From a virus, in the IMG/VR virus record IMGVR_UViG_3300042465_001347, positions 1 through 23,956 of that record: DNA of 23,956 nucleotides. One strand, written 5' to 3'. Shown here in pieces: positions 1,273 to 23,938 of the stretch. The notes under the pieces are model-generated. The model made no database searches, was not told the DNA's origin, and saw nothing but the letters and a program-made list of their open reading frames with translations. Numbering within the stretch: the first letter of the stretch is position 1; every line of letters begins with the position of its first letter. The position numbers were made by a program, and so were the translations under genes.

Positions 1273-4200
1273 TTAAAGCAATAACCCTTAAGTCTCTAAT
1301 TTTAGGAACAATAACTGTATCTGTTGATAACATAACAATCTTAATAATGAATTGGTTAAATAATTGTTTATTTGGTAAAGCGAACCTAACTCCTGGACTT
1401 GCAACATCATCGTAATCACATATAAATTTATGTTCAACATATTGTGATGTAAAGGAAGCACCTCTTTCTGACATACTCATTTCATAATAAGGAGATTGTT
1501 CTAAAGTGTTATTTCCGCTAACAAATACTGCTTTATAATAAACCTTTATAGAAGATCCAATTGGAGTATTAGCATTAAATCTAACGACAATATCAGTAGA
1601 TTCGAATCCATCTGCCAAGATAACTTTTCTAGTTATATATTTTGATAAAGCCATCCCACCAGCAGGTAATAGTTCAGTATCACCATTATGTGTTTCTCCT
1701 ATATACCTCAATAATGCACTACCATTCAAGGTATCATTACCATCAAAAGATGGAGCCAATGTACTTGTTACCCCAGGAACAATAACAGAATACATTTTAT
1801 ACATAGAGCCATATAGGACTTTTATATATTTATCAGCAGTAATAGCTGTACTAGCAATAAAATTAGGTGCTATTGTATCGGAATTTACAAGGTTTTTTAC
1901 CAGAATATTTGATAGTCTAAAGATATCTATAACAGGTGAAAGTTTATCGTCTTCAGTAGTCAATTCAATTTTAGAGAATAAATCTTTACTTACAGAATCT
2001 ATAACTTTTCTTTCAGGTAAGTCGTATGATATATCTTTCATTATGCCAGTATAATTTGTATCTGTAACACCTGCTTCATTTGTTGATTTATAATAATATT
2101 TAGTATCAGTTTTATTGAAGGATAAATTTTCGCCTTGTTGGTATATAACATCATATGCAACAGGAATAGTTTGCCATCTTGCTTCAGTTCTTAGGAATAA
2201 AAGGCTTAATGAACCATTTGTTTCAGTGCCTGTAGTATGAGTTGGAGCAGTTGTTCCACTTATTCCATTTGTTCCTTGAGTTGTGACCATATATACCCTA
2301 TCAGTATTTTCAGCAGATTCAACTCTTATGATAGAATCTTGATTATAACGTGTCGATGGTATAAATTTATTATATTGCAGTTCAAAATTAGAAACTGGTT
2401 TACTAGAGATAAAAGACAGTTCCCCAGATGGAACGAAATTACATCTGTTTATAACAAAGCATAAATCTTGATAAGGAGAAGGAAGCCACGTTTGTGAATT
2501 TGAACTTTTAAATAGATCACCAGAATACGGTGGTTCTGCTATTCTAGAAGTCAAACTATCTAACCTAAAATTTCCTAATGTTGCAGTAAATAGTTCATAA
2601 TCGATAGATGGTGATATAATAACAATCGAATATGTTCCAGCTGACAAATATATAGGAGATGAAAACCTAAATTTAGTTGCTGAATTAGCATCTGTTGATG
2701 GATACACTGTTGTATTCACTTGTGATGCAGACAAAGAAGAAGTAGCGAATGGAACTATATCAACTGCACTAGGAATGCCATTTACCACTGGTCTTATTTG
2801 AACTGTTATATCATCAGTAAATGATTTCTTTTTAAAGTATAAATCAATAGATGAAACAAAATAACCTTCAGGATGTTCCGATGGATTAATAAAGAATGTT
2901 TGCGCTAATGGATCAATATTTGCTATAGCCGTAGCATTAGATATCAGTTTTAAATTAGATGAAACATCTAATTTAGGATCTCCTGCATACAGTGGTGTGA
3001 CTTCCCAATTTAGTAAAAAAGTATTTATAGCTTTGACAGGTTCATAAACTGTTTTTTTATAGTCGGCTATTATAGCTGCATAATTTGACAATTTAGATAA
3101 TTTATTATAAGAAATAGGTTGAGTAAGACCTGTTTTTGCAGCCCAATCAAATGCGGGTGAATAGAAAACATATGGCCAAGTCACAGTAACATTAAACACA
3201 ACAGACTCACCAACTTGAAGAGTAATGGGAAACGCAGTGCGATTTGTACGAACCTTTTTACTTACAGAAACTATGTTTGATATAGCAGTTGTTATATTAG
3301 CTCTAAATGGTAAATTATATGCAGGACTTTTAGCGGAGGCTCCAGAATAATCTTGTGACATATTAACATTGACAGATTCTATAGTACCAGGACCTTTCCC
3401 ATTATTAGCTATAGTATAAGTAATTGTTTTGTTACCTGCAGGGAATGTAACAAGACATTGCCCACGATTAGCATATAGAATTTCGTTATTTTGCCCTCTA
3501 TATTGTAAAGTAGCAATTGATTTTCCACCAACATTATTAGGAAGTCCAAATTGTGACTTTGTATTTGAATAAAATGCTTTATCGCCTAGATGCCACATAG
3601 ATAATATGCCATCTAATTTTGGTGGAGCGAAATTAGTATTATTTGGAGTAAGATTAAGATTCGCTCTACCATCAGTAACTATTGTAGATGCTGGTAATAC
3701 GCTATTCCAAGTATTACTACCCCAAGAAGTAACTCTCAATAATGCACCTTTAGGATATGACTTATCTTTGTTAAATCTGTATTTAAGTGGATTTGTTTTA
3801 GTGGGTGGTATTATTGTAACCCAATTATGAATACCTTTATACCGTTTACCTATTTTTGTGAAAGGCGATACATCTGAAGTAACAAATGATGGTTCTTCTA
3901 AAGTTCCTCCTGATCCAGCAACTATTTTCCCATCCCAGATTAACTGAAACGATTCTACACCTTCTACTGTTGGACCGCCACCTAAACACTGTGTCACATC
4001 AATACCACACATACCAAGACCAGTAGAAAAATCTATTTCATAATCTGTTACTGAATGTCTTCGTTCAACTGTTTTACCTATTACAATATTTGTAGTTGCA
4101 ATAGGTGTGGTAAAATCATATTGGGTTGTTCCGACCCAAAATATGCTGTTATTCTCTGCTGATTTAATCGCTGTTCCTGGAATACCAACAACATATTTTG

Positions 4201-5716
4201 TGATCGGAGACAAATTTTGTGAAGGATTTATAGTTAATGTATTGCCAACAAAAGATAACAGTGTGCTTGTAGCAACATCAAAAGCCTCAAACACTGTTGC
4301 ACCTATATATAAATTTATAGTCCCAGTTCCTTTTAATATACCACTGTTGAACTCAATTTTGATATTTGTGCCCATATCAATATCGGTTGCCCCATCAGAA
4401 GGGAAAAAACTTATAGCAGATAATGTTGTTGGAACACCAACAACAACTGGTTCTGGTATTGTCGTGAAAGAATAATTACTGCTACCAGCGTAAGGATTAG
4501 CCACAGCATCTCTTATAGAATCATATGGTATATCCACATAATATGTTACATCTTTAAATAAATCTGCTGTTGGATTTATAGTTAATGTATTGCCAACAAA
4601 AGATAACCGTGTGCTTGTTGCTATATCAAATGTTTCAACCACAGTCCCATTTGATTTTTTAAGAACTATATTTCCGCCCCCTTTTACAATATTTTCACTG
4701 AAAGTAAAGACTATGTTTGAGTTTACCGCAATTCCAGTTTGCCCAAGAGTTGGTGAATACGCAGTTATATATGGATTAGATGAATCTACAGTTATTGTTA
4801 TTGGATTTGATGGAGAAGATGCGGTAGGTGCGGCAACTGTAGTTGCTACTTCAGTGGTAGATGATTTAAGTATTGGATCTATCGTAACTTGATTAATTCT
4901 AGTCGCTAAAGTTGTTGCTTGTTTAGTTTGAGTTGTACCACTCGCATAATACGAAAATTCTGCAGCGGTATGAATTTCTGCTGAATTATTGGTTACACTA
5001 TCACATAATAAAAAAGAACGAGTGCCTGTTTTGAATGATGCTTGATCGGTATTAGGTAATACGAAAACCCCCGCAACATAACCATCTTTATCGGTTGTCA
5101 ATTTTTCATCTTGATTTATTGCGGTGATTTCATATGTCTCATTATATGTCTCATTACCCCAAGTAAAAGTATCAGCGGCAGTTAATGTATGATTAGTTAT
5201 AAGACTAGGATCGTTAAATTTCTGTCTGATGAAAGCTGTCTTACCTTTCGCAAATAAAACAGTAACAACACTATCCGTCAAGGTAAATTCTTTAGAGTAT
5301 TTTTCAGGTATTGCTTTATCCAATACCAACCTTGTAGAAGTAAAAACATAATTATCTACATTAACATTATCAAAAAATGCATACAAATTTGTTAAAGGTT
5401 TTAGATGATATGCACTAAAGTTTATAGACCTAGACCGAATTGTATTAATAACAGATATATCAATAACAGATTCACCGATAGACACAGTATTAGTAGATTG
5501 AGTAGAACCGAATTGTAATCCAACTTGTGATTGAGTTGTAGACGCATTATAGGTAGCAGAAACATCCATAGAAACTACTGGTGGTTGTGTTGCTGCTAAT
5601 AAAGCTGCTGCTGCAACACCAAGGGTAATTACTGCAGTTGGATCTGGATTTATTGGTGTAGTCGAACCTTGTGTCGTGGTGGTAGTTGGATTATTAGCTG
5701 AAACTGTTGCCATCAT
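1265..5716 (-). CDS. Large virion protein with two Ig-like domains
   Basis: This 1483-residue protein is probably a peripheral baseplate or fibre-connecting component. The N-terminus is Thr/Asn-rich, then a hydrophobic Ala-rich stretch (about 28-42). Residues 314-420 and 432-538 are two tandem bacterial Ig-like domains of SbsA (Big_5) type, each ending in SFVGNTLTINP...YYV/YVV...I and a YSFTT/YDFTT strand. Residues 545-930 are unrecognised and contain several Cys (about 570-580). From 934, DPLAQTFFINPSEHPEGYFV with SSIDLYFKKKS, TVQIRPVVNG and SPIYLSAGTYSIVI recalls a conserved segment of virion proteins encoded after DUF4815 genes in T4-like aquatic phages. Two adjacent ATG codons are possible starts (5716 and 5713); AAGGA lies upstream of both. 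The gene overlaps the next one by eight bases. Function is inferred from context. Confidence 0.72.
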   Translation of the reverse strand: MMATVSANNPTTTTTQGSTTPINPDPTAVITLGVAAAALLAATQPPVVSMDVSATYNASTTQSQVGLQFGSTQSTNTVSIGESVIDISVINTIRSRSINFSAYHLKPLTNLYAFFDNVNVDNYVFTSTRLVLDKAIPEKYSKEFTLTDSVVTVLFAKGKTAFIRQKFNDPSLITNHTLTAADTFTWGNETYNETYEITAINQDEKLTTDKDGYVAGVFVLPNTDQASFKTGTRSFLLCDSVTNNSAEIHTAAEFSYYASGTTQTKQATTLATRINQVTIDPILKSSTTEVATTVAAPTASSPSNPITITVDSSNPYITAYSPTLGQTGIAVNSNIVFTFSENIVKGGGNIVLKKSNGTVVETFDIATSTRLSFVGNTLTINPTADLFKDVTYYVDIPYDSIRDAVANPYAGSSNYSFTTIPEPVVVGVPTTLSAISFFPSDGATDIDMGTNIKIEFNSGILKGTGTINLYIGATVFEAFDVATSTLLSFVGNTLTINPSQNLSPITKYVVGIPGTAIKSAENNSIFWVGTTQYDFTTPIATTNIVIGKTVERRHSVTDYEIDFSTGLGMCGIDVTQCLGGGPTVEGVESFQLIWDGKIVAGSGGTLEEPSFVTSDVSPFTKIGKRYKGIHNWVTIIPPTKTNPLKYRFNKDKSYPKGALLRVTSWGSNTWNSVLPASTIVTDGRANLNLTPNNTNFAPPKLDGILSMWHLGDKAFYSNTKSQFGLPNNVGGKSIATLQYRGQNNEILYANRGQCLVTFPAGNKTITYTIANNGKGPGTIESVNVNMSQDYSGASAKSPAYNLPFRANITTAISNIVSVSKKVRTNRTAFPITLQVGESVVFNVTVTWPYVFYSPAFDWAAKTGLTQPISYNKLSKLSNYAAIIADYKKTVYEPVKAINTFLLNWEVTPLYAGDPKLDVSSNLKLISNATAIANIDPLAQTFFINPSEHPEGYFVSSIDLYFKKKSFTDDITVQIRPVVNGIPSAVDIVPFATSSLSASQVNTTVYPSTDANSATKFRFSSPIYLSAGTYSIVIISPSIDYELFTATLGNFRLDSLTSRIAEPPYSGDLFKSSNSQTWLPSPYQDLCFVINRCNFVPSGELSFISSKPVSNFELQYNKFIPSTRYNQDSIIRVESAENTDRVYMVTTQGTNGISGTTAPTHTTGTETNGSLSLLFLRTEARWQTIPVAYDVIYQQGENLSFNKTDTKYYYKSTNEAGVTDTNYTGIMKDISYDLPERKVIDSVSKDLFSKIELTTEDDKLSPVIDIFRLSNILVKNLVNSDTIAPNFIASTAITADKYIKVLYGSMYKMYSVIVPGVTSTLAPSFDGNDTLNGSALLRYIGETHNGDTELLPAGGMALSKYITRKVILADGFESTDIVVRFNANTPIGSSIKVYYKAVFVSGNNTLEQSPYYEMSMSERGASFTSQYVEHKFICDYDDVASPGVRFALPNKQLFNQFIIKIVMLSTDTVIVPKIRDLRVIALND
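4103..4777 (-). repeat. Duplicated Ig-like domain coding segments
   Basis: The two Ig-like domains are related at the DNA level. The 36-base stretch 4224-4259 recurs exactly at 4572-4607, an offset of 348 bases (116 codons), and most flanking bases also agree, encoding SFVGNTLTINP in both. This suggests an internal domain duplication followed by divergence. Confidence 0.85.
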
Positions 5717-5727
5717 TTATTCCTTAA

Positions 5728-8700
5728 TTATTGATTAATTATTGTAACATTAGATCGAACAGAAACATTAGATTGTAACGCTAAATCTGTAACACCCTTA
5801 CCTGTCGTTTCCCAATTTGACCAGGATTGTCCATTACCTGTCGCAAATACCGAATATGCATCATGTTCACCATTCAAATTAACTGTCACTTCTGGCTTAG
5901 TAACTGTATCTATCCATACATCAGTTGGAGGGTCCATAGCCATAATTCCATTCCAATTGAACACACCAAAGGGTTGAACGGATTCTGCTTCAGAAGCGAT
6001 CATTTGTATAACAACAGGGGATTCAGTAAAATCTAATGTCGCTAGATCTCTTGATATATCTATATTTATAATGCTATTATCAACAACATTATAACCATAT
6101 GAATTACTATCAAAGGCAGGTCTTAAAATTCTAGTGTTAAAATCGATTGCACAATTGTAATCCGGATTATATACATCACCAACACTATGTCCAGCGAAAG
6201 CGTCCACTAAAATACCATTTTTAAATTTATCCATTCCAGGAACATCAGAAGCAACTGATTCATCAGAGGCTTGTTTTTCTAAAAGAGATAATGTTGAATA
6301 ATATTCTAAACGATTAACCCTCTTATCAATTTTTGCTATATCTTTCATAGTATAACGTCTGTTATCTATATACTCTATAGTAATATCATCAGCCGAAAAG
6401 GTATAAGCTGGGATTGATACAATATACAAAGTCAATGAGTCTCCAACAGAAGGAATCAATGGAAATTTTGCTGGAACCCCTTGGACAATAGACAGATTTA
6501 AATCTGGAGTAACTACTATTCTATCTGTTCTTGGTAAGTAAAACTCATAATCTGTGGTTAATAAACTATCAAATATTGGCAGATGAAATGCATCAAAAGT
6601 TGTAGAATTATCTGTTCTTCTTGGTCTAAAATCTAACACATCAGATAATCTAAAAATATCACCAGATGCAACTTTATAACTAGGAATTTGATCATATGAT
6701 AATGCAGTGCTGTACGAATCTACTGTAATCGGACCAACGCCAGTATGTGAAAAATACTTAAACGATACTGTTAATGATGTAATTCGTTGATTAGTTGACC
6801 TTGGTGTGATATTAGGATTTTTTAGTTTTATATAAGCATGATCATAATAGGCATCTTTCTGCCCACTATACAAATTGTATAGGTCTGTTTGATCACCACC
6901 TTGATCATCCATTACTGATATTAATTCATATCCATCAGCTGTATTCAAAGATATACTTGTATCATCAATAGTAACCCCAGATATAACCCCAGATATAACC
7001 TTAGACCCATTTGTTAAAGTTTTATTTCTAGTAGAGGTAAGACTATTACTAACAACAACAAAAACATCTATTGTCATATTAGTATTTTTGTTTATACGCA
7101 CTGTAGCTGAAGTAGGACTAGAAATATTGACAGAAGCAATATCAGTAATCGGAACAATTTGTCCAACAGTATAGCCAGAACCACCTGCGGAAACCACTCT
7201 TGCATACCAGTGTTGGGAAATAGTAGATGCAGACAACAATCCACTACCTATAAATGATTGAGGTGAAGTTAAAGTAAATGAACCCTGACTCATAGAACTA
7301 ACAGCAGCAAAAGATACATATAAAAATTCTTTATAAGATTGATAAGATATATCAGTTAAATTATTTGTAGATAGATGTGTTTTTACTGGTGTGTTAGGTA
7401 ACTTAAATAATTGCGAATAGTTTTGAGAATTATACACCGAAACTGCAGCAGTGTATTCTTCATTGCTAAAATCTGCACTAAATTGTTTAGCGTACGGACC
7501 AGTTCCTGTTTTCACAATAAAAGATTTTGCGTTTGCAAAACTCTTTCCTGTAAACATACTTATATCTGTTAAAAATAATTTGTATGTTCCAGTAACACCA
7601 GAATTGATTGTATATAAGGCAGTAGCTGTTCCTATTTTTGTAGTATTATAAGTTGTTGCTGATGTTAAATTTACGCCTGCATCTACGCCTGCAGTAGTAA
7701 GATTACTATGAATATCTATTGTTGTTCTTGTGGAATATGGAAATATTAAACCAAACAAATTTTCGACAACAACATAAGGACCTTTATCTAAAATAATTTG
7801 AGCATTATTGACAGATGAAGTTGTTCTTGCTTTTGGAGCAGTTAAAGTTGTTTGTTCTTTTGTGCTAAACTCAAACCCTTGTATATAAGCTAGACCTTTA
7901 TCTAATTTTACCGAATAATCTGTTGTATAAGTTGTTTCAGGAACAACTTTACCCATGAATGGCATTACGGTGTAATCACCCGATTCATTATAGGTTCTTT
8001 CTGCTAAATGTTTTTCTAAATCAGAATATGCAGGTTTATCAATGTCTACAACAATTGTTCCATTTCTATAAGATGCTAAAAGAAAATGTTTATTACTAGT
8101 GTCTAAAGTTTCACCAGCGTGAGTAGAAGTAAGAGTTAATTCTATACAATATCTATCTGCTCCAGGAGCAGAATAATTTGGAGAACCTGCAGCATTGTCT
8201 AATAGTGATTCATCTTCACTATATGTTATAATAGATTCTATCGCCTCTAAGTAAACATCAATATTAGCAGTGTTATCGCCAGATACTAATATAGTTTGTT
8301 CTTCTACTGTTGTAAAGTACCCAGATATAAAATATACACCTTTTAGGATTTTGTGTAAGATATAATCTGTATAGACAGCAAAATTATCAGAACTCTCAAC
8401 TAACAAGGTAAATGTTACATTACCTTCAACAGTAAGAGTAGTATTTTCTGATATAATACCATCAGTTTTATCGACTGTAAAAATATAGTTAACAGAGTTG
8501 ATAACTTCGGTATGAACTATTAATTTTCTAGTGGTTCCAATGTAAACTATTTTACCCAAAAAATCAGCTAATACTATTGTTCCAGAAAAGGATTTTATTG
8601 GAATAGCTTTTGTGTATACTGCAGAATGATCCCCATTATGAACAACTGATCCATCTTTAAAGATATGTGAACCAAATTTATCTATTTGAGATTGTATAAT

Positions 8701-8826
8701 AGATTGTAGTTGTGTTAATTCCCTAGCTTGAACTGCATATCCAGGCTTAAACAGAATTTTATGAAAATGTTTACTGTCGTCAAAATCGTCAAAATATGGT
8801 TCAATATTAAAATCTAGATTAGCCAT
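5728..8826 (-). CDS. DUF4815-type baseplate/virion structural protein
   Basis: This 1032-residue protein has the N-terminal signature of the DUF4815-type phage structural proteins: NIEPYFDDFDDSKHFHKILF (6-25), PGYAVQARELTQLQSIIQSQ (28-47) and HIFKDGSVV. Later family-like phrases are VKLDKGLAYIQGFEF (about 305-320), SGDIFRLSDVLDFRPRRTDN and YEFYLPRTDRIVV in the C-terminal half. Such proteins occur in T4-like phages of aquatic bacteria and in some other myoviruses, next to wedge genes. A role at the outer wedge or fibre-joining layer, perhaps replacing T4 gp9/gp10, is inferred from gene order. One GGSGY turn near residue 545 resembles the repeats of the gp8-like protein. AGGT lies about eight bases before the ATG. 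The equal length to T4 gp7 is coincidental: I see no gp7 motifs. Confidence 0.75.
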   Translation of the reverse strand: MANLDFNIEPYFDDFDDSKHFHKILFKPGYAVQARELTQLQSIIQSQIDKFGSHIFKDGSVVHNGDHSAVYTKAIPIKSFSGTIVLADFLGKIVYIGTTRKLIVHTEVINSVNYIFTVDKTDGIISENTTLTVEGNVTFTLLVESSDNFAVYTDYILHKILKGVYFISGYFTTVEEQTILVSGDNTANIDVYLEAIESIITYSEDESLLDNAAGSPNYSAPGADRYCIELTLTSTHAGETLDTSNKHFLLASYRNGTIVVDIDKPAYSDLEKHLAERTYNESGDYTVMPFMGKVVPETTYTTDYSVKLDKGLAYIQGFEFSTKEQTTLTAPKARTTSSVNNAQIILDKGPYVVVENLFGLIFPYSTRTTIDIHSNLTTAGVDAGVNLTSATTYNTTKIGTATALYTINSGVTGTYKLFLTDISMFTGKSFANAKSFIVKTGTGPYAKQFSADFSNEEYTAAVSVYNSQNYSQLFKLPNTPVKTHLSTNNLTDISYQSYKEFLYVSFAAVSSMSQGSFTLTSPQSFIGSGLLSASTISQHWYARVVSAGGSGYTVGQIVPITDIASVNISSPTSATVRINKNTNMTIDVFVVVSNSLTSTRNKTLTNGSKVISGVISGVTIDDTSISLNTADGYELISVMDDQGGDQTDLYNLYSGQKDAYYDHAYIKLKNPNITPRSTNQRITSLTVSFKYFSHTGVGPITVDSYSTALSYDQIPSYKVASGDIFRLSDVLDFRPRRTDNSTTFDAFHLPIFDSLLTTDYEFYLPRTDRIVVTPDLNLSIVQGVPAKFPLIPSVGDSLTLYIVSIPAYTFSADDITIEYIDNRRYTMKDIAKIDKRVNRLEYYSTLSLLEKQASDESVASDVPGMDKFKNGILVDAFAGHSVGDVYNPDYNCAIDFNTRILRPAFDSNSYGYNVVDNSIINIDISRDLATLDFTESPVVIQMIASEAESVQPFGVFNWNGIMAMDPPTDVWIDTVTKPEVTVNLNGEHDAYSVFATGNGQSWSNWETTGKGVTDLALQSNVSVRSNVTIINQ

Positions 8827-11194: not shown

Positions 11195-12973
11195 TTAGTT
11201 GTTTAATGTAATAGAAAAAGTAGAGCCAGAATAAGTAATAACCGCAGGAGTTTCGGTGTTAACATAATCCACATTATAATCAGAAACCCAATGCTCAAAC
11301 CCTAAAATAGATATAGCATCAATTAATCCTTTATTTAGTACAAAAGATTTTGATTCAGAAACCGAAACACTTTCAGTTAATCCTTTATTTAGTACAAAAG
11401 ATTTTGATTCAGAAACCGAAACACTTTCAGGTAAACCTTTGTTTAGTATAAAAGATTGTAATTCGCCAATTAGAACACTTTCAGGTAATGAGTTATTTAA
11501 CGAATTGTATATAGTATCAGTAATTAAAATATTTTCAGTAAAAAATTTACTTATTTCAAAAGATTTTGATTCAGAAACTGAAACACTTTCAGATATTGCT
11601 CCTTTCCTAAAAATGAAAGATTGTAATTCATCAATTACAACTTCATTACTTAAACCTTTACTTACCGCAAATCTACAAATTTCATTAACCGATAAGAAAT
11701 CAATTGGAGATACATTAATAAATTTTTCAAGAATTTCAAGAGTATTTATCAAAAATATTTCATTAGATAGCACCTGTGTTCCAAACAATTTCATACCTGT
11801 AGGATGCACAAGAGTTTTAACTATATCCCTATAAGTATTAATAGATTCTGAGCAATTTATCACATAAGAATACAGTTGATAATATACACTATCTTGTAAC
11901 TTATAAGAATTTGATACAAACCCCCTTTCACTTTTGTAATATCCTTTATATTTTCTAACGCTACCAGTGTTAATTTTTATATAAGCTGAAGTTTCATCCA
12001 AGGAATAATCTGGTGTAGATGTATCAGAAGATAGTTGAGTAACAAGAGTCCCAAAATAGCTATCATCTACATAACCGCTAACAACAAAAAAATCAGAAAC
12101 AATATTTTTTGTAACAAGGAAACTTTCTTTTAATCCTATTTTATCTACTAAATAAGGAAAGTTTGGAACATATACATAAAAAGGATTTACATAACCAACA
12201 CCAAAATTTATTACTTCAATTTTTAATATTCCACCGCTTGAATCAACATCAGAAACTTTCAATAAAGCATTCGTGCCTGTTGGGGTTGTTATGGTTATTA
12301 ATTGCCCTCTATAGAACCCAGAACCAGAAGAAACAACATCAACTTTTGTGATTGAATTTATGATAGTTGCATCGAAGTCATTTAATGATATTTTATCACC
12401 AACCGATATTATGTTATACACTGTTGGTTCTATAAAAACTTCAAAATATGATCCTAATTGTTGTATCTTTATGACATTAACTAAGATAGTTTGTGATGCA
12501 GAATTGATATAAATTTGTTTACCTACAATACTGTAGATATCACCGTGAGACACATTAACTAAAAAAGAAACATCTTGTTGCCATTCACCATCTGAAGGTT
12601 TGAAGATATATTCAGCTGGATATTTTATATCTATTTCAATATTGAAAAGATGTCTAAATAGAATTTTAAAAGATTCTTCACTACCTTTAGATGAATAGAA
12701 ATCTTTAATATGTTTTAGAAAATGTATGTCATTAGCTACATTTGTTCTAGGAACATTAATACCAAATTCTTTCCATAGGGAATCTATAAATTTATCTAAT
12801 GTATTATCAACATCCCTTATTGAATTAAAACTTTCACCAACACCCTCAAGTTCTGATGTTTTCAGAAATTCATAATAGAGTTCAACGAATCTGATAAATT
12901 TGGGATAATCTTCTTTAACAAATTCGGGAAACTGGTGTGATACTGTAGAAACTGCTGGTATTTTATAAGTCAT
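11195..12973 (-). CDS. Baseplate wedge gp7-like protein, short form
   Basis: This 592-residue protein matches the C-terminal third of T4 gp7, the wedge core protein that bundles with gp6 and gp25. Residues 90-108 (KDFYSSKGSEESFKILFRHL) parallel T4 YDFYSTKGIEASYKFLF, and IVKTLVHPTGMKLFGTQVL (384-402) parallels the T4 segment with RFVHPVGFGF. The N-terminal FPEFVKEDYPKFIRFVELYY is a helix typical of these proteins. T4 gp7 has 1032 residues, so the N-terminal half of the T4 protein is absent. Residues 210-270 contain two GSGF/GVGY-type repeats shared with neighbouring proteins. From about 427 to 562 there are seven or more 18-residue repeats (consensus SVSVSESKSFxLNKGLxE), two of them identical at the DNA level. 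The ATG lies two bases after the gp6-like stop; its ribosome site is weak, suggesting coupling. Confidence 0.82.
   Translation of the reverse strand: MTYKIPAVSTVSHQFPEFVKEDYPKFIRFVELYYEFLKTSELEGVGESFNSIRDVDNTLDKFIDSLWKEFGINVPRTNVANDIHFLKHIKDFYSSKGSEESFKILFRHLFNIEIDIKYPAEYIFKPSDGEWQQDVSFLVNVSHGDIYSIVGKQIYINSASQTILVNVIKIQQLGSYFEVFIEPTVYNIISVGDKISLNDFDATIINSITKVDVVSSGSGFYRGQLITITTPTGTNALLKVSDVDSSGGILKIEVINFGVGYVNPFYVYVPNFPYLVDKIGLKESFLVTKNIVSDFFVVSGYVDDSYFGTLVTQLSSDTSTPDYSLDETSAYIKINTGSVRKYKGYYKSERGFVSNSYKLQDSVYYQLYSYVINCSESINTYRDIVKTLVHPTGMKLFGTQVLSNEIFLINTLEILEKFINVSPIDFLSVNEICRFAVSKGLSNEVVIDELQSFIFRKGAISESVSVSESKSFEISKFFTENILITDTIYNSLNNSLPESVLIGELQSFILNKGLPESVSVSESKSFVLNKGLTESVSVSESKSFVLNKGLIDAISILGFEHWVSDYNVDYVNTETPAVITYSGSTFSITLNN
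11323..11700 (-). repeat. 54-bp tandem repeats inside the gp7-like gene
   Basis: Seven consecutive 54-bp units encode 18-residue repeats in frame. Units 11323-11376 and 11377-11430 are identical base for base. Unit 11539-11592 is very close over its last 36 bases. Units 11431-11484, 11485-11538, 11593-11646 and 11647-11700 are diverged but keep length and reading frame. The pattern fits repeat expansion by slippage or unequal recombination, with the newest copies at the 3' end of the gene. Confidence 0.9.
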
Positions 12974-15916: not shown

Positions 15917-18682
15917 TTAGCGGAATATGGCAGCACACACTATTGCAAAATCAGATTGGACTGGAGTGCCATTCCCAGTTTCGCAATCAATTCTAAAGTT
16001 AGAAGAAGTAAAATCTACTGCGGCAATAGTACCAGTAGATGCCGTATCAGTCCCTGTTGTCGTAGTACCACTCACTACTGCCGCATAATTAATATCAGGC
16101 ATAGCAGTTATAAAGTTGACTGTGTAAGACCCAGTCCCGTTATCCGTAATACTCGACACGTTCCCACTTGCACGAATACCCATAGGAGCACCAGTACCGT
16201 TGAAGTTTACCCACGCTCTGCATGCGTAGACTGGGGCGGTTCCGGATATTACTGGGACGTTTGCGCCTACAAAAGACCCACTTGTTCCAATATCTCCAGA
16301 CCTACAATCAATATATGCTTTAACCGTAGTTAAATCTTGATAATCTCTAAACCCAATACCCCAATGGCTATGAATAGCTGTGTTATAAACAGTGAATGAA
16401 GCTCCATCGCCCGTGCCATTCTGTATATTAAATGCTCCAGTCGCACATGGAAATGAAGTAGTACCACTAAACGCTCCAGTGGTTGCGCTAACAGTACCCC
16501 CTGATTGATTTGTAGCAGTAGCAGCGTTGCCTGTGCAAGAAGTTGAAGAACCTGTTACGTCACCGCCAGTAGTTATGTTTGTGCCTGATATGTTGCCGTT
16601 TTCATTGAATGTTACACGCTGACCCCCATTATTACCCCAACTCGCCATTGTACCTATTGCTTGAAATTCAATGCCTGCAGGGGTTGTTCCTTGATCTGTA
16701 AATCCAACAAGAGTTATTCTATTTCCTGTTACATCAGCAATATCATTTTTGACAATAACATTATAAGTAAGGGAACCAGTATTCCCTAAGATTTGTACGT
16801 CAATATGCGTAGCACTATTAACACCAATATCATAAACTCGAACTTTGTTAATTGCAGGATACCCAGCATTATCTGTTGGATTTACATAATATCCAGCACG
16901 ATAAACTTCGGCACGCCATTGACCAGTACCTTTGGCAACTTTTATTACAGTATTATTATGTGTGTGTCCGTGTCGAATATGAATCTCAACATCTTGTCCT
17001 TGGTTAGAGGCAGGAAATGTCGCTATTCGATACCAATTTCCTGCCACTAAAGATGCTGTTGTACTGAGTATATCCCCAAAAGATAGTTGACTGTTTGCTG
17101 TGGTTATATAACCACCATAAACATCCAATTTTGATGTAGGACTAGCAGTCCCAATCCCCACGTTGCCGCCATTAGGGTTAATTGCAATATCAGCAGTTGT
17201 TGAAGAAGTGGCAGTTGCCATCCCTTGGATAAGGCCAATACTTGCGTTATTACCGATGCCAATACCAGCAGTGGAACTATTAAGACCAAAAAAAGAATTT
17301 AGCCCAAATATTCCATTATTTCCAAAAACATGAAGTTTTGCACCTGGAATACTCGCCCCAATCCCCACGTTGCCGAAGACGTCTATGGTCGTTTTTACAG
17401 ATGCCCCTGTCCATAACTGCAAGCTTCTTGAGCTATTATCGTATTTAAGCCCCGCATCAAATAGTGATATACCCGCTGAACCGAACCCTATTTGTTGCGT
17501 TCTAGTAGCTGCGTTATCAGTTAGTAATGTTAAACCTAAATCACCAGCGTTATACATTATTAAATTACTTGCCCCTACAACTGGGTTTCCTGTTGCTGGA
17601 ATTGAAGTAGGTGTACACCCAATCCCCACGTTGCCGGAAGCATCTTTATAGACTTGACCTGAACCAATGTTCAGTATGTCCGTTGAGCCTGTGAGTGTGC
17701 CTGTGTAGGTTGGGTTACTTAATGTCGGTGAAGCCAGTGGTGCTTTTAAGTCCAATGTTCCCGTGATACCGTCCAGTTTAGTCTTGTCTGCGGCACTCAT
17801 ACTACCAGCGACTGATGTTGTTGATGCGCCTATTGCAGTTACTAATTGGGCAGCAGTTGCAACAGTAAAGGCAGAAGTTGCATTACCGTATGGAATACCA
17901 GTTAAAGTTGTTACACCTGTACCACCAGAACCGACAATTAAAGTAGCAGATAATCCAGCAGCTGTACCTGATGTGTTCAAACTACCTAAAGCAAGAGTTC
18001 CACCTAAAGTTAAAGAACCAGTAGAAGTGACAGTACCAGTTAATGTCAGTCCTGAAACAGTTCCTGTACCACCGACAGAAGTTACCGTGCCTGTTGTAGG
18101 AGTTGTCCAAGTTGGTGCTGCGTTACCTGCCGATGTTAATACTTGTCCAGATGTACCATACGCTGTACCCGATGAACCAAAAGATATGCCTCCTGCGGAG
18201 GTGATGCGCATTTTTTCTGTTACTTGATTTCCACTTAACCTTGTTCCAAATGCAAGATATGAGGCAAAATTACCATCAGTTGCGTTTTCTTTAGCCCCCT
18301 TAATTATTGCAAATTGAGCAAATGATGTCCCTGTATACCTGCCACCTAAACCTATGGTTGCACCAACATCAATACCTAAAGTTGAATTTGATTGTATTTG
18401 AAATGTTGCAGGATTACTTCCTGTGTTAAAGTTATAATTTAGTCCAGTAAATGAAGCAACAGCACTTGCTATAGAATCTCCCGCACTATTGGCTACTCCA
18501 TTAAGTACATCTAATCTGTTATTAGGACTACTCGTCCCAATCCCAACGCTGCCAGTCGAGGTAATACCATTAAAACTACCATAAGGTATCTGAACAGAAA
18601 CCCCACTTTGTAAACCAAAAATAGTTTCAGTTCCAACTATTGTTGAAGCTACTGGTAAATCAGATAATTTTTTTGTTGCCAT
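15917..18682 (-). CDS. Long tail fibre protein with VGIGT motifs
   Basis: This 921-residue Gly/Thr/Ser-rich fibre probably binds the host receptor. The N-terminus (KKLSDLPVASTIVGTETIF) resembles the anchoring end of many phage fibres. Motifs of the form GNVGIGTSSP followed by LDV recur near residue 45 and several times in the centre, as in trimeric beta-structured fibres. The long Thr/Gly stretch (about 185-330) reads as repeated strands such as GTVTSVGGTGTVSGL. Residues 820-921 form a distinct C-terminal domain beginning ACRAWVNFNGTG, with GNVSSITDNGTGSYTVNF and AMPDINYAAV, a tip domain I recognise from many phage fibres. No intramolecular chaperone is visible; the two small genes just downstream may assist folding. 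The start has an exceptionally good ribosome site. GC is clearly above that of the baseplate genes, which suggests exchange. Confidence 0.85.
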   Translation of the reverse strand: MATKKLSDLPVASTIVGTETIFGLQSGVSVQIPYGSFNGITSTGSVGIGTSSPNNRLDVLNGVANSAGDSIASAVASFTGLNYNFNTGSNPATFQIQSNSTLGIDVGATIGLGGRYTGTSFAQFAIIKGAKENATDGNFASYLAFGTRLSGNQVTEKMRITSAGGISFGSSGTAYGTSGQVLTSAGNAAPTWTTPTTGTVTSVGGTGTVSGLTLTGTVTSTGSLTLGGTLALGSLNTSGTAAGLSATLIVGSGGTGVTTLTGIPYGNATSAFTVATAAQLVTAIGASTTSVAGSMSAADKTKLDGITGTLDLKAPLASPTLSNPTYTGTLTGSTDILNIGSGQVYKDASGNVGIGCTPTSIPATGNPVVGASNLIMYNAGDLGLTLLTDNAATRTQQIGFGSAGISLFDAGLKYDNSSRSLQLWTGASVKTTIDVFGNVGIGASIPGAKLHVFGNNGIFGLNSFFGLNSSTAGIGIGNNASIGLIQGMATATSSTTADIAINPNGGNVGIGTASPTSKLDVYGGYITTANSQLSFGDILSTTASLVAGNWYRIATFPASNQGQDVEIHIRHGHTHNNTVIKVAKGTGQWRAEVYRAGYYVNPTDNAGYPAINKVRVYDIGVNSATHIDVQILGNTGSLTYNVIVKNDIADVTGNRITLVGFTDQGTTPAGIEFQAIGTMASWGNNGGQRVTFNENGNISGTNITTGGDVTGSSTSCTGNAATATNQSGGTVSATTGAFSGTTSFPCATGAFNIQNGTGDGASFTVYNTAIHSHWGIGFRDYQDLTTVKAYIDCRSGDIGTSGSFVGANVPVISGTAPVYACRAWVNFNGTGAPMGIRASGNVSSITDNGTGSYTVNFITAMPDINYAAVVSGTTTTGTDTASTGTIAAVDFTSSNFRIDCETGNGTPVQSDFAIVCAAIFR
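17150..17167 (-). repeat. 18-bp GNVGIG-coding repeat, copy in long fibre gene
   Basis: The 18-mer GGCAACGTGGGGATTGGG (minus strand, 12 of 18 bases G/C) encodes Gly-Asn-Val-Gly-Ile-Gly. Exact copies lie here and at 17357-17374, 17618-17635 and, in another gene, 570-587. A copy with two mismatches is at 18536-18553. Confidence 0.85.
17357..17374 (-). repeat. 18-bp GNVGIG-coding repeat, copy in long fibre gene
   Basis: This is an exact copy of the 18-mer at 17150-17167, here followed in the protein by ASIPGAKLHV. Confidence 0.85.
17618..17635 (-). repeat. 18-bp GNVGIG-coding repeat, copy in long fibre gene
   Basis: This is an exact copy of the 18-mer at 17150-17167, here followed in the protein by CTPTSIP. 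Confidence 0.85.
18536..18553 (-). repeat. 18-bp repeat, diverged copy near the fibre N-terminus
   Basis: This copy differs from the 17150-17167 unit at two of 18 bases and encodes GSVGIG. Its downstream flank shares a few further bases with the copy in the short fibre gene. Confidence 0.8.
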
Positions 18683-19062
18683 TAATACCCTCCTTCATAT
18701 ATAAATCCATCTTCTGTGATTATTTGAAAACCATCTTCTGTTACTAACAGGAAAGTTCCTGTTCCTGCAAATACGTTTGAAGAACCAGATGTTAAAGTTC
18801 CAAGATCAGTAGAATCCCCATTTCTAGCAATAGGTTTTCCATTAACATAAACACTATTAGAACCTGTATTGATAACAGCTGTATGTGGGACACAGTATTG
18901 TCCAACTTTAATGTTATGTATTTGAATTGCATCACCTTGTCTACAAACACCATAACCATTCACAAACACATTAGACGAACCAACATCAGTTACAGTAGTA
19001 GCATCACAAGTATGACCAGTATTTACTGTATCCTGTCCTCCTCTTCTCGCTACTGCTGGCAT
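18682..19062 (-). CDS. PAAR-motif spike tip protein, gp5.4-like
   Basis: This 126-residue protein has the PAAR architecture: two similar halves, each with a Gly-Asp turn (RQGDAI and RNGDST), the phrase SNVFVNG/NSVYVNGKPIAR, and scattered His and Cys residues that can bind a metal (H17, C19, C41, H57-type positions and CVPH). PAAR proteins cap the beta-helix spike of contractile tails and type VI secretion systems and sharpen the tip; T4 gp5.4 is the phage example. The position directly after the spike gene supports this role. Past the core, about residue 105 onward, there is an extension with two TEDGF units and a Gly-Tyr end, so the protein is longer than a minimal PAAR of about 95 residues. 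An AAGGAA site lies six bases before the ATG. Its stop overlaps the fibre start (TAATG). Confidence 0.88.
   Translation of the reverse strand: MPAVARRGGQDTVNTGHTCDATTVTDVGSSNVFVNGYGVCRQGDAIQIHNIKVGQYCVPHTAVINTGSNSVYVNGKPIARNGDSTDLGTLTSGSSNVFAGTGTFLLVTEDGFQIITEDGFIYEGGY
18688..18695 (-). promoter_or_regulatory. Strong Shine-Dalgarno of the fibre gene
   Basis: The minus strand reads AAGGAGGG, then five bases, then ATG at 18682. This near-perfect anti-16S match is the best ribosome site I found in the window and fixes the fibre start. It lies inside the end of the PAAR gene, whose TAA overlaps the ATG by one base. Confidence 0.75.
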
Positions 19063-19071
19063 ATCAATTCC

Positions 19072-21978
19072 TTATGAAAATAGTTTTTCTATTTTATTAG
19101 ATTTCTTTTTCCACTCTACCTGAGTAGTAACTTCTTTAGATGAATTATTTTTATCATATGCTAAATGAATCCATCTAGATTTTCCACCATTAGCATATTC
19201 CATAAAGCATTCTTGATATGGTAATATCTTTTCTAACTTTACACATAGATCATACAGATCAGATATTTTATTTGGTGTTACTAATTGAATATCTGCAGCC
19301 CTACCTTTTAGATGGTGTGAAGTTTTAGAACCTTTAGAATTTGCTCTATTATTAGGTCTAAATCCATCAGAAATTCTCCAAGTAGCACCATTTCCTCCAC
19401 CTTGACAAGGACCAAGTTCATCATATATTTTTTCTAATAAATTTTCGCACAACTCAGATAAATTAGCAACTATATTGGCTTTTGTGTATAGAGTTCCTGC
19501 TATAGTTTGTTCCTGTAGATTACCATCTTTACATAACATACCTAAAGTAAAATGTTTAGATAATGGATAACTTAAAGGGAAATCACCTCTTCCATTTATA
19601 TCATTAAGTTTATCTTGAGAAATATCAGTCCCCCCAGATTTTCCTCCAGAAGGAGTAGTAGAATCTTCAGCAGTTGGATCAACATGATTGTGTTCATAAT
19701 CACTTGTTGATGATATTTTATGTTCTAATTTCTGACCACCCGAACTTGCCCAATCCGCTTCAGTTTCATATTTTGATGTTGATTCAGAATGTCTTTCTGG
19801 AGTTTTTAAATTATTTTGTGGTGGTTTATTTGAACCTACACTTGGTGGTACTTGTAATTTAGAATAAGGACTAACACTTGCTCCAGATGAAGTTAATGAT
19901 GTCTTATTCTCAATTGGTGCACCAGTATATTTAACATCATATATATCTGGAGCAATACCACCAACAAATGGTATACCAGTTAACGCATATTCAATAATAG
20001 ATTTTGATAATGTGTTTGGGTTATATTCACCAGCAGGATTTAATACAGTATCAACTAATACTTGCTCTTCTTTTCTATCTTTAACAGGATCTCCAGCAAA
20101 ATCTACTGGAACTTTTGGGGCACCTAATAATACTAATGGTTCTACTTTATCGGATATTGCAGTTATTGGGGTTGGTGGTATAGCAGTTCCATTCAAATCT
20201 ATAAAACCTGCTGTTGCAGATAATGTGGCATTAGCGTTTATAATAGCAGTTCCAGTAGAATTTAGTTGAAGAATACCCATAGTTGTAGTAGTATTAAACA
20301 TTCCTGTAAGAATATCTGTAGATGTTGTTCCATCTAATTGAAACATATCTGTTTTAATCTTAGTAGTTTCTTCTGTTTGAAGCAAAAAGGTTTTAGTTTT
20401 TATCTCAGTTGAATCTTCTATATCCAGCGTGAAAGTTTTTGCTTTAATTTGAAAATCAGCAGGTGTTTCCAATTTGAAACTACTAGACATCTTCATTAAT
20501 GTTTCAGCAGTAGAAGCAGTATCACCCCCTTCCATGCTCATAGTCTTAGCAGTTTTTAATTTTAATGCATCAGTAGATTCAATAGACATTGTACCAATTG
20601 ATCTAGTATTAGAAGTTTTAGCAACTTCAACATTATAATTTCCTTCTACAAGAACATTATAATCCCCACCCACAGCAATATTAAGATCTTTTGCAACACC
20701 AATATTAAGGTCATCATGAATAACAACATCTGCTGTTCCGTTCACTTCAATATTAGCATTTCCTTGACATAAAATATTCAATTCACTAGCAACTGTTATA
20801 TTACATGTTCCATTAATAAAAACATTTCCATTATTTTCTGTGATATAAAATCCATCACCAACGATATAATTAATTTGAGAACCATTAGGATCTATTTCAA
20901 TAAATGTCCCTTTACTGTGGTAGATATTTACCCGTTCACCATCTGGACTATCATCAAATTCTAAAACATGTCCAGCCTCAGACTCAAATACCTTGTTAAA
21001 TGGATATACCGTATTATACGCACATTCTGGTTGATCCCAAGTGCCCTGTTCACCCGTACCACCTGCCATATTAGCAATAGGGATATCAAGTTTTCTAGTT
21101 ATATCTTTAAATTTTACATGAGTTCCATCTATAATACCACGAGCAAGTCTATTGGTATCTGGTTCATTCATAAAATCTCTAAGTGGGTATTTCCCTTCCG
21201 GATCAGTAAATCCTTCTGTATTGAAATTTGCAGATCTATCTTCAGTATATGCTTCTCGTTTATTTGGATTAGATAAATCTATTTCTCTAGCAGTTTTATT
21301 TACTGAGGTTGAGGATGGATCTTTATTTGTTGGAGGAGAATCCGATTTACCACCTAAGAAGTATTCATAATATTTTCTTTTTACTGGCCAGCCATTCGCA
21401 TCACCGCCTACTTTACTCAGTAAATAATCAAAAAATCCAGAACTCCATTGTCGTGTTTCCCAGTCTTTCATTTTCCACTTGACAAATTCCACCATAACCT
21501 TACCGCCAATATCAGCAGAAGAAGCCACTAAATCAGGATTCCCAACTAAATCAATACCTAATTTATCCCCAATAGCCTTATATGCTTCTGGGAAAGTAAT
21601 TTGTATAAACCCCCTACCATGATAATTTCCGATAGATGCAGGTTTGTTTTTACTTGTGCCATAGATAAAACCAAAGAATTCTACCCTAGAATATTGATTT
21701 GGTTTATTATTCCAATGTTCTGCGTCTGGTTGTTTAATCCTTGGCCAAGTTCCACGTATACCCTTGGTGGAATAAGTATGATCTTCTAATGCCGAATATA
21801 ACCATTTGCTTTCAACACCAGCAACACCAAGCAAGGCACATTTAGCATATTTAGATTTTAAACCAGCAGCATCACAGGCAGCGATAATAGCTGCTATACC
21901 TGCGACTGCTCCTTGTGTTGCACCAGAACTAGTAGGTGGTGTACTTGGGATTGGTATGCTTTCTATTGGATCAGCCAT
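19072..21978 (-). CDS. Baseplate spike with GH19 and M15 lytic domains
   Basis: This 968-residue spike protein probably cuts the host cell wall during tail contraction. Residues 25-215 look like a GH19 glycosidase: GVESKW with candidate catalytic Glu56, Glu65 in ALEDHTYS, and the signature NYHGRGFIQIT (118-128) followed by GIDLVGNPDLV. Residues 330-600 are repetitive, with many short beta-strand units such as NIEVNGTADV and DLNIAVGGDYNV, fitting a gp5/VgrG-like trimeric beta-helix. Residues 610-790 are a low-complexity linker. Residues 800-968 resemble an M15 D-Ala-D-Ala-type peptidase: WRISDGFRP, then S887-x-H889-x-x-G-x-A-x-D896, Glu927 and H938 in RWIHLAY, giving a plausible His/Asp/His zinc site. 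T4 gp5 has a GH24 lysozyme and no peptidase. It lies 8 bases after the OB-fold gene and 9 bases before the PAAR gene. An AAGGT ribosome site precedes the start. Confidence 0.85.
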   Translation of the reverse strand: MADPIESIPIPSTPPTSSGATQGAVAGIAAIIAACDAAGLKSKYAKCALLGVAGVESKWLYSALEDHTYSTKGIRGTWPRIKQPDAEHWNNKPNQYSRVEFFGFIYGTSKNKPASIGNYHGRGFIQITFPEAYKAIGDKLGIDLVGNPDLVASSADIGGKVMVEFVKWKMKDWETRQWSSGFFDYLLSKVGGDANGWPVKRKYYEYFLGGKSDSPPTNKDPSSTSVNKTAREIDLSNPNKREAYTEDRSANFNTEGFTDPEGKYPLRDFMNEPDTNRLARGIIDGTHVKFKDITRKLDIPIANMAGGTGEQGTWDQPECAYNTVYPFNKVFESEAGHVLEFDDSPDGERVNIYHSKGTFIEIDPNGSQINYIVGDGFYITENNGNVFINGTCNITVASELNILCQGNANIEVNGTADVVIHDDLNIGVAKDLNIAVGGDYNVLVEGNYNVEVAKTSNTRSIGTMSIESTDALKLKTAKTMSMEGGDTASTAETLMKMSSSFKLETPADFQIKAKTFTLDIEDSTEIKTKTFLLQTEETTKIKTDMFQLDGTTSTDILTGMFNTTTTMGILQLNSTGTAIINANATLSATAGFIDLNGTAIPPTPITAISDKVEPLVLLGAPKVPVDFAGDPVKDRKEEQVLVDTVLNPAGEYNPNTLSKSIIEYALTGIPFVGGIAPDIYDVKYTGAPIENKTSLTSSGASVSPYSKLQVPPSVGSNKPPQNNLKTPERHSESTSKYETEADWASSGGQKLEHKISSTSDYEHNHVDPTAEDSTTPSGGKSGGTDISQDKLNDINGRGDFPLSYPLSKHFTLGMLCKDGNLQEQTIAGTLYTKANIVANLSELCENLLEKIYDELGPCQGGGNGATWRISDGFRPNNRANSKGSKTSHHLKGRAADIQLVTPNKISDLYDLCVKLEKILPYQECFMEYANGGKSRWIHLAYDKNNSSKEVTTQVEWKKKSNKIEKLFS

Positions 21979-21986
21979 AATATACC

Positions 21987-22673
21987 TTAAAAGTTATTGT
22001 CAAAATAGTTTAATACTTGTTCTTTAGTATCAAAAGACATACTGGTTCCTTTGAATGGCAAATATTGGAAATCTTCCCATTGTTCAGGGTTTAATAAAGT
22101 TGCGTTGTATTTCTTAGTGTTCTCATCATAAGCAACAGTTGAAATTGTCGTATCATCAATATTAGATTTAATATCATATGTTGTATGTGTTCCTTCTGAT
22201 AATTGAACTGTTATCGCATTGATATGATATTTCTTGGCAGTTTCTTGAGTAACACCTTCAACCTTATCTTCAGCAATAGAATCAATTAATTCTGTTACTA
22301 CATCTCCAGTTGTGCTTATTAATTCACCATCTACATCTGTAGTTACAGCACCATTAGTAACTTCTGAAACATATGCGGCAGATCTTGTTTGAGGTATACC
22401 ACCAAGAGTCCCAAGCATTATAGGTTGTTGTTGAGCATCATCAAGAAATATTACAACTACCCACGAACCTTGAACAACTCCAGTAGGACTCCAACCAATA
22501 CCATTCATAGAAGCAGAATTAATAGGCATCATAGGATGTGCCCAAGGTAAATCAAATGTTGGCAATTCCACTTTGTTTTCTGTATGTAAACCAACAATCC
22601 TAACTTGACATCTACCAAGTTTTAGGGGATCAAGTCTATTTTCAACTACCCCAGTGTAAAATATCTGATTCAT
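21987..22673 (-). CDS. gp5-type OB-fold spike-base protein
   Basis: This 228-residue protein has an N-terminal gp5/VgrG-type OB-fold over about residues 1-95: FYTGVVENRLDPLKLGRCQVRIVG at the start, GWSPTGVVQGSWVVVIFLDD in the middle and QQPIMLGTLGG at the end. In T4 this domain sits at the N-terminus of gp5, binds the gp27 hub and is continuous with the lysozyme and the needle. Here the chain ends soon after, with an acidic linker (about 100-145) and a tail (146-228) I do not recognise. The start codon overlaps the hub gene stop as ATGA, with GGAAG five bases upstream. The separate downstream spike gene supplies the enzyme and needle parts, so this protein probably adapts hub to spike. OB assignment is strong; the role of the C-terminal half is unknown. 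Confidence 0.82.
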   Translation of the reverse strand: MNQIFYTGVVENRLDPLKLGRCQVRIVGLHTENKVELPTFDLPWAHPMMPINSASMNGIGWSPTGVVQGSWVVVIFLDDAQQQPIMLGTLGGIPQTRSAAYVSEVTNGAVTTDVDGELISTTGDVVTELIDSIAEDKVEGVTQETAKKYHINAITVQLSEGTHTTYDIKSNIDDTTISTVAYDENTKKYNATLLNPEQWEDFQYLPFKGTSMSFDTKEQVLNYFDNNF

Positions 22674-23938
22674 ATGCTTCCCATATTTAGATTTATATCA
22701 AAAGAATCTTTTATCAATTCAAAAATACATTCATGTAATTGATTATTTATTTTGTGGCGTATAGATGAAATGATATAATAACCAGAAAATACTTTATCAA
22801 CTATATCTTTATCTTGTTTTTCAATAGCCTGATTCTTATATAACTTTAACTTAATTTTTTGTCCAACTGTATAATCAGTTCTACCAAGTACAGTAATTTC
22901 TACTTTACAACTCTCTGCAATATTCATAAGAGATCTTCTTCTTTGAAAATATTTAGAATTTGACCAATCATGATTACCAGTCATTAAAGCATTTGCCTTA
23001 TGAATTGTTGCAATAGCAGAATTTGAATTGTGCATCAATGTTTTAGTTAAATAAGGATACTTATTAAGTCTTACATCTTTTGTATAATTTTCCAAAACAT
23101 CAAACTTTCTAACCATATAGTTTTTTGTAGTAACATCATGTGTTATCAGAGTAGAGGAATAAGAACCATTCTGAATATTATCCATATAGTTAAATGCTGT
23201 TGGAATAACTATATCCATAATACCACTATAATCTTGTTCTATATTTCTTATGTTACCATTGTATGTAAAGTCTCTAACAAAATTGTCTTTGCTAAATTCT
23301 CGCACAGATTCATTATTGTATAGAGCTTCTAAAGATATAAAATTCAATCCATTTCTATTTTCAAAGAATAAGAATGTTGGAGAATTGGTTAATGATAATG
23401 CATGATCTGCTAAATAATTTAAATTTTTAAATGGTGACCAAAAATTAGAAACATAAGCTAACCCATTATTTGTTGGTTCTACATGGTATCTTTCTACATT
23501 AGATTTAACACTATATTCATCAAGAAGTTTTGCTGCAAGAACTCCAATATTATCATTATATGCACGACTAATCTTTACATTAAGATCTACCATTGCTTCA
23601 GCAGATACGAAATGTAAAATATAACTTACACAACGATCACCCATAAATTCCCTATCTGATAACTTGTATATCCTAAAGGTATTTTGAATATATGAACCTT
23701 CTTTAGTGAAACCTGGGGTTGCCATTTTTACATGAAGAGTTTCATCACCAATAAGAGGAAAAGAGTTTACCAAATCTAAAGAATCTTTTATAACTAATGA
23801 ACCAGTTATGAATGGTGAAAATATATCTTCATAGATATTGATAGTCAAACAAAGATGCCTAATATCAAGAGTTAACCCTGTAGAAGAGACTATATCTAAT
23901 TGATGAATATCTATATCACCCGCACTCTTTAACCCCAT
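22670..23938 (-). CDS. Baseplate hub protein, gp27-like
   Basis: This 422-residue protein is the likely central hub subunit. In T4 a gp27 trimer forms a ring that joins the tail tube to the gp5 spike. Length is close to T4 gp27 (391 residues). The N-terminal part (DIVSSTGLTLDIRHL, then NIYEDIFSPFITGSLVIKDS, around residues 13-50) is the pattern I associate with phage hub proteins that open with a small beta-barrel. The C-terminal part has GQKIKLKLYK followed by GYYIISSIRHKI, a typical late hub beta-strand pair. The gene overlaps the next gene by four bases (ATGA), which suggests translational coupling, and that gene encodes the expected OB-fold partner. The start at 23938 is the first ATG in frame and its upstream context is cut by the window edge, so a slightly longer N-terminus cannot be excluded. 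The identification rests on remembered family pattern, size and neighbours. Confidence 0.78.
   Translation of the reverse strand: MGLKSAGDIDIHQLDIVSSTGLTLDIRHLCLTINIYEDIFSPFITGSLVIKDSLDLVNSFPLIGDETLHVKMATPGFTKEGSYIQNTFRIYKLSDREFMGDRCVSYILHFVSAEAMVDLNVKISRAYNDNIGVLAAKLLDEYSVKSNVERYHVEPTNNGLAYVSNFWSPFKNLNYLADHALSLTNSPTFLFFENRNGLNFISLEALYNNESVREFSKDNFVRDFTYNGNIRNIEQDYSGIMDIVIPTAFNYMDNIQNGSYSSTLITHDVTTKNYMVRKFDVLENYTKDVRLNKYPYLTKTLMHNSNSAIATIHKANALMTGNHDWSNSKYFQRRRSLMNIAESCKVEITVLGRTDYTVGQKIKLKLYKNQAIEKQDKDIVDKVFSGYYIISSIRHKINNQLHECIFELIKDSFDINLNMGSI

Follow-up and report, generated by a model that had tools for sequence, protein, structure and literature searches.

The spike protein encoded in the window, the whole stretch of 23,956 nucleotides of viral DNA that was analysed (IMG/VR record IMGVR_UViG_3300042465_001347), carries two different peptidoglycan-hydrolase domains on one T4-type chain. 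This had been proposed in a sequence-only reading of the same DNA and was borne out by profile searches, relatives and fold comparison, with the activities being predicted. The protein is very probably a homologue of T4 gp5 that would act as an entry lysin and cut both the glycan and the peptide bonds. A GH19-type domain precedes the needle, an M15-type domain follows it, the active-site residues of both are intact and a PAAR gene adjoins the spike gene.

The spike gene is a complete open reading frame with an ATG start and a stop codon at its end. Its position and its length of 968 residues had been given correctly in the sequence-only reading, which omitted that the gene lies on the minus strand. 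The following features were assigned.

19072-21978, minus strand: spike gene, 968 residues, with GH19 domain, gp5-type segment, beta-helix needle, linker and M15 domain
21352-21909, minus strand: GH19-type lysozyme domain, residues about 24-209 (PF00182, phrog_181, PDB endolysins, AF2 and Foldseek)
21784-21813, minus strand: catalytic glutamates E56 (21811-21813) and E65 (21784-21786), invariant in 34 chains and placed by the TseP-C alignment
21079-21222, minus strand: GFTDPEGKYPLRDFMNEPDTNRLARG segment, residues 253-300 (C-terminal part of the Gp5_OB profile, PF06714 positions 78-108)
20179-21039, minus strand: triple-stranded beta-helix needle, residues 314 to about 600 (T4 gp5-type structures, phrog_430)
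19621-20178, minus strand: linker, residues about 601-786 (pLDDT, conserved short motif)
19114-19620, minus strand: M15-type zinc peptidase domain, residues about 787-955 (Pfam M15_3, phrog_894, AF2 and Foldseek)
19165-19314, minus strand: predicted zinc ligands H889 (19312-19314), D896 (19291-19293) and H938 (19165-19167), invariant in 34 chains
19198-19200, minus strand: predicted catalytic E927, invariant in 34 chains

All residues quoted in the sequence-only reading were found in place: E56, E65, NYHGRGFIQIT at 118-128, S887-x-H889-xx-G892-x-A-x-D896, E927 and H938. Matches to GH19 and to M15, the latter just below the cut-off in Pfam, were obtained at the two ends with Pfam and PHROGs. 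In PHROGs, the spike matched gp5 (phrog_430) at 4e-52, an M15 endolysin (phrog_894) at 2.6e-15 and a GH19 endolysin (phrog_181) at 7e-15, and the three matches fell in the three expected places independently of Pfam.

The GH19 domain was matched by PF00182 with an E-value of 1.4e-7 and 32 bits against a cut-off of 25.5, and the GH19 profile matched 34 of 34 aligned chains at E-values up to 0.1. When the A2 alignment profile was compared with PDB endolysins, 1.6e-14 was obtained for this domain. The AF2 model of residues 1-300 showed a confident core, with a mean pLDDT of 76.6 overall. In Foldseek, GH19 phage endolysins ranked highest (E 6.7e-5 to 6.6e-4), ahead of TseP-C and chitinases, the leading matches being GH19-type proteins throughout. 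E56 and E65 aligned with the dyad E655/E663 of TseP-C (numbering from PMC11893102), an experimentally shown lysozyme whose activity is abolished by mutation of E663 (PMC11893102), and the clustering of the catalytic residues would follow from this homology. With the Pfam score above the cut-off, the fold match and the invariant residues, an N-terminal GH19 domain with Glu56 and Glu65 is upheld, and the comparisons support that it is nearer to phage endolysins and TseP-C than to chitinases. Since a further GH19 open reading frame of about 210 residues, probably the lysis endolysin, was found in 7 of the 14 spike contigs, the GH19 domain of the spike is probably not the lysis enzyme.

Downstream of the GH19 domain, the C-terminal part of Gp5_OB matched residues 253-286 (Pfam, E 7e-6). 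The GFTDPEGKYPLRDFMNEPDTNRLARG segment aligned with EGFSDPTGQYP of T4 gp5 and was near invariant in the alignment of 34 chains. The repetitive middle, which had been described as beta-helix-like, matched the T4 gp5 needle: residues 314-499 matched T4 gp5-type structures at 2e-19 to 4e-16 with phmmer, the value for the T4 gp5 beta-helix itself being 4e-16, and the phrog_430 match covered residues 311-553. Judged from the repeats, the helix would end near residue 600. In the AF2 model, most of the linker stretch 690-734 fell under a pLDDT of 50, and short helices were predicted at about 740-758. A motif PxR...ETPxD...PEG at residues 727-748 (19735-19800, minus strand) was present in most relatives, the rest of the linker being variable; E738 was invariant and T739, D742 and G748 were near invariant in the 34 chains. 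A Pfam match to Aerolysin at 721-792 (E 0.011) was seen in only 1 of 34 members and was taken as chance.

For the M15 domain, the sequence matches to known M15 structures were weak and the assignment was decided by fold comparison. Peptidase_M15_3 matched residues 869-904 with an E-value of 7e-4 and 20.1 bits, just below the cut-off of 23.2; the score was 23.4 bits, over this cut-off, for the identical copy of the spike on a second contig of 54 kb (L098, the contig of L001) and 26.8 bits for the relative L061. In sequence searches of the PDB, no M15 structure was hit with a profile that spanned the linker as well as the rest of the C-terminal segment; with a profile of M15 alone, M15 peptidases were matched weakly, the best being 2VO9 at 0.0018. 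In the AF2 model of residues 690-968, pLDDT was about 72-97 over 787-955. The best solved match in Foldseek was the zinc DD-peptidase 1LBU (probability 1.00, E 1.2e-3), followed by hedgehog domains, fold relatives that share the M15 fold. Among viral predictions, the best matches were Gp5 proteins of uncultured phages, pf16 and two proteins of 701 and 329 residues, which agree in length with the spike of Cr30 and the PAAR-M15 protein of the Vibrio phages. The C-terminal M15 assignment is supported by phrog_894, the 1LBU fold and the invariant ligands and glutamate. By profile and fold, the relatives of the domain are mostly peptidoglycan peptidases.

In the IMG/VR scan, relatives of the spike, whole or partial, were encoded at 77 loci on viral contigs. 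The window protein was aligned with relatives that were 31-76% identical to it, 34 chains in all. In this alignment, E56, E65, GRG121-123, S887, H889, G892, D896, E927, W936 and H938 were invariant, whereas most columns of the M15 domain varied. Given the number of invariant columns in the domain, the probability that the 4 predicted M15 catalytic positions would all be invariant by chance was 3e-5. The conservation of the predicted catalytic residues is far beyond that of a chance motif. The M15 catalytic residues were also kept in the C-terminal M15 of BUCT-ZZ01, Cr30, pf16, Melnitz and Vibrio phage 1.244. Both motif sets were found in 52 of the 61 complete chains, neither in the 9 other spikes and one alone in no chain; the census was seeded with peptides of the window protein, so dual chains are over-sampled compared with nature. 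Dozens of uncultivated viruses from water, and at least one phage in culture, share this needle with both predicted enzymes. The 54-kb contig also encodes PhoH, a gp32-like protein and two large proteins with leucine-rich-variant repeats. The psbA gene, looked for as a host clue, was found in none of the 14 spike contigs, a result that speaks neither for nor against cyanobacterial hosts.

By sequence similarity, the spike gene stands in a T4-type baseplate cluster. On the minus strand, the order is a hub protein in the gp27 position, the OB collar, the spike, PAAR, a tail-fibre-like protein and gp25-like and gp6-like wedge proteins. The immediate neighbours are the following.

22670-23938, minus strand: hub/tail protein in the gp27 position (phrog_350 tail protein, 1.6e-75)
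21987-22673, minus strand: separate OB-fold gene (the gp5 N-terminal collar), 228 residues (PF06714, 8e-20; phrog_430 positions 17-183)
18682-19062, minus strand: PAAR spike-tip protein, 126 residues (PF05488, 3e-11)

A gp27-like role is assigned to the first of these by position only. Between the OB gene and the spike gene downstream of it lie 8 bases. Most relatives have a single chain of about 1,000 residues with OB, GH19, needle and M15; in the window and at L001-L004, L006 and L007, OB is encoded by a separate gene whose end lies a few bases ahead of the spike gene. In a maximum-likelihood tree, whose rooting rests on long outgroup branches, 5 of 5 split chains tested fell in one clade (100/99) that was grouped with the fused chains L010 and L015 (95/91). 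Because the split chains form one clade grouped with these fused chains, the simplest reading is that one derived fission moved the OB collar into its own gene in the clade of the window. The two enzymes would thereby have remained with the needle, the collar becoming a protein of its own. Neither this derived fission nor the wide occurrence of the architecture, cultured phages included, had been noticed in the sequence-only reading. Of the T4 gp5-type features, the needle, the hydrolase at its base and the PAAR gene are present, and the OB collar is not on the spike chain; the spike is a fission variant of the gp5 type, not a canonical gp5.

PAAR genes were found in 10 of the 14 spike-bearing contigs, mostly just downstream of the spike, which rules out that PAAR is lost when M15 is present; the 4 contigs in which no PAAR gene was seen were all fragments. 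The PAAR protein of the window ends in a tail in which a TEDGF element is repeated (LLVTEDGFQIITEDGFIYEGGY), and its similarity to L002 and L004 stops at residue 100, so that the tail is variable. Near-identical C-terminal repeats (ESVSVSESKSFVLNKGL and variants) were also seen in a wedge-like protein of 592 residues (11195-12973, minus strand). Two bacterial Ig-like Big_5 stretches (1.4e-24) occur in a protein of 1,483 residues (1265-5716, minus strand), which adjoins a DUF4815 protein at 5728-8826.

The sequence-only reading had called a peptidase past the needle end topologically odd and had left a choice between a linker that folds back and a domain that is released. Neither point was supported. 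In T6SS, evolved VgrG proteins bear enzymes at the C-terminus, past a needle of this type (PMC7043769), and PAAR genes accompany the spikes, so no fold-back or release is required. In the Vibrio phages 1.244 and 1.255, a homologous M15 domain is fused to the C-terminus of PAAR itself. Since the linker is partly predicted to be disordered, the M15 domain could hang beside the tip. Its place after the needle and the analogy to the Vibrio PAAR fusion suggest a position near the tip.

In the proposed mechanism, three copies of the spike would assemble into the beta-helix needle, and PAAR would cap it. The three GH19 domains would surround its base, and the three M15 domains would sit near the tip on flexible linkers. 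Upon sheath contraction the needle would pierce the outer membrane. The leading M15 domains would cleave bonds of the stem peptides or cross-links and the GH19 domains that follow would cleave the glycan, and together they may make an opening for the tube. This function as an entry lysin is suggested by the shown lysozyme activity of TseP-C, which aligns at both glutamates (PMC11893102). It is also suggested by the domain and fold matches, the conservation, the all-or-none census, the OB, hub, PAAR, gp25 and gp6 neighbours and the M15 domain on the PAAR tip of Vibrio 1.244. A tentative and rather doubtful extension is that the fission made a needle trimer with six catalytic domains and no covalent link to the OB collar; such a trimer could come off the hub and keep cutting glycan and peptide in the periplasm. 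In T4, by contrast, the lysozyme stays with the collar after maturation cleavage.

It is unlikely that a maturation cleavage frees the M15 domain, which would then be a soluble passenger or be shed. T4 gp5 is cleaved in maturation (Kanamaru 1999, as cited in PMC4576200) and the partly disordered linker would allow it, but a conserved motif is kept in this linker, and the homologous M15 fixed on PAAR in Vibrio 1.244 suggests selection for retention at the tip. One of the two domains might instead be an idle relic or a binding module, with M15 for example binding peptides or shaping the tip, and only one bond type would then be cut. The M15 domain is divergent, with the window protein below the Pfam cut-off, and its fold is able to serve other roles, as in the hedgehog domains, which have a signalling role. 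This is quite improbable, since the zinc ligands and the catalytic glutamate are invariant in the 34 chains although most M15 columns vary, and the catalytic residues persist in five other phage groups.

That the enzymes target a surface layer other than peptidoglycan, with GH19 cutting an exopolysaccharide or chitin-like glycan and M15 another peptide, is very improbable. The GH19 family includes chitinases, but the best relatives of this GH19 domain in profile and fold comparisons are endolysins of phages and TseP-C, a T6SS lysozyme, and the character of the M15 relatives also speaks against it. A gene-prediction or assembly artefact that joined or split unrelated genes has practically no probability. 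The window is a metagenomic contig, but an identical spike was found on a second contig, the same split was found at six loci from several samples, and the cultured phage BUCT-ZZ01 has the same domain order; the independent contigs refute an artefact.

As a predicted entry lysin with two hydrolase domains, the spike was compared with known systems. It shares with T4 gp5 the triple-stranded beta-helix, the GFxDPxxxYP segment, a gene for the PAAR cap, the hub and wedge neighbours and a hydrolase near the needle base. In T4 gp5, however, a GH24 domain follows the GFxDP segment. The window spike instead has GH19 ahead of this segment and an additional M15 domain beyond the needle, and its OB collar is encoded separately. 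The hub of Synechococcus phage BUCT-ZZ01 (UTS51949.1, annotated as T4-like gp5) likewise has OB, GH19, beta-helix and C-terminal M15, but it is a single chain of 939 residues without fission, and its annotation is silent on both enzymes. With the fused relative L041 as query, 1 of 50,697 phage records was covered to at least 80%, namely BUCT-ZZ01 (86%).

A glycosidase and an M15 domain are also combined on the T4-type spikes of Caulobacter phage Cr30 and Ochrobactrum phage vB_OspM_OC. In Cr30 the glycosidase is a Phage_lysozyme2 and M15 is C-terminal, whereas in vB_OspM_OC M15_3 (5.7e-13) and Phage_lysozyme2 (1.2e-20) both precede the needle. The pf16 spike has a C-terminal M15 only. Methylophilales phage Melnitz (L079:4871-5911) has a VanY-type domain on the OB protein and M15 after the needle, possibly a spike with two peptidases. 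In Vibrio 1.244 and 1.255, the homologous M15 (31% identity) is likewise at the spike tip and associated with PAAR, but it is on PAAR and the spike itself is unarmed. Another pairing of M15 and spike was seen in Sinorhizobium phage phiN3 (L097:4093-5655), where a separate M15 gene of 520 residues directly follows the hub/spike gene.

Evolved VgrG proteins (VgrG2b, VgrG3) resemble the spike in having an enzyme past a gp5-like, PAAR-binding needle, but they are bacterial weapons, and the accessible part of PMC7043769 describes no second hydrolase at the needle base. The window spike stands in a phage baseplate context and the protein in the gp27 position is a separate gene; by analogy the spike would work like an evolved VgrG, but it is not one. 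A glycan-cutting domain and a peptide-cutting or amidase domain are joined in the virion-associated lysins phi11 Gp49, phiMR11 Gp61, HydH5 and CwlP of Gram-positive phages and in the T6SS effectors TseP and WHIX (PMC5380687, PMC11893102, PMC12135965), but none of these is a gp5-type spike.

According to a 2017 review, every virion-associated lysin with two different lytic domains belonged to a phage of a Gram-positive host, and phi6 Gp5 was the one case of demonstrated endopeptidase activity in phages that infect Gram-negative bacteria (PMC5380687). Two-domain virion lysins are thus already known, and the spike sequences are public with their architecture unremarked in cultured phages. No description of a two-enzyme gp5 spike was found in the open-access literature, most subscription papers being outside the scope of the search. 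Our results point to a large, mostly uncultivated T4-type group with both kinds of domain on the spike, and to at least two other combinations in cultured phages. They suggest that attack on both bonds during entry is common among certain environmental myophages. The natural fusions of M15 to the spike end or to PAAR provide testable evidence for the required position of an enzyme on the tip, and the GH19 and M15 domains are candidate antibacterial enzymes.
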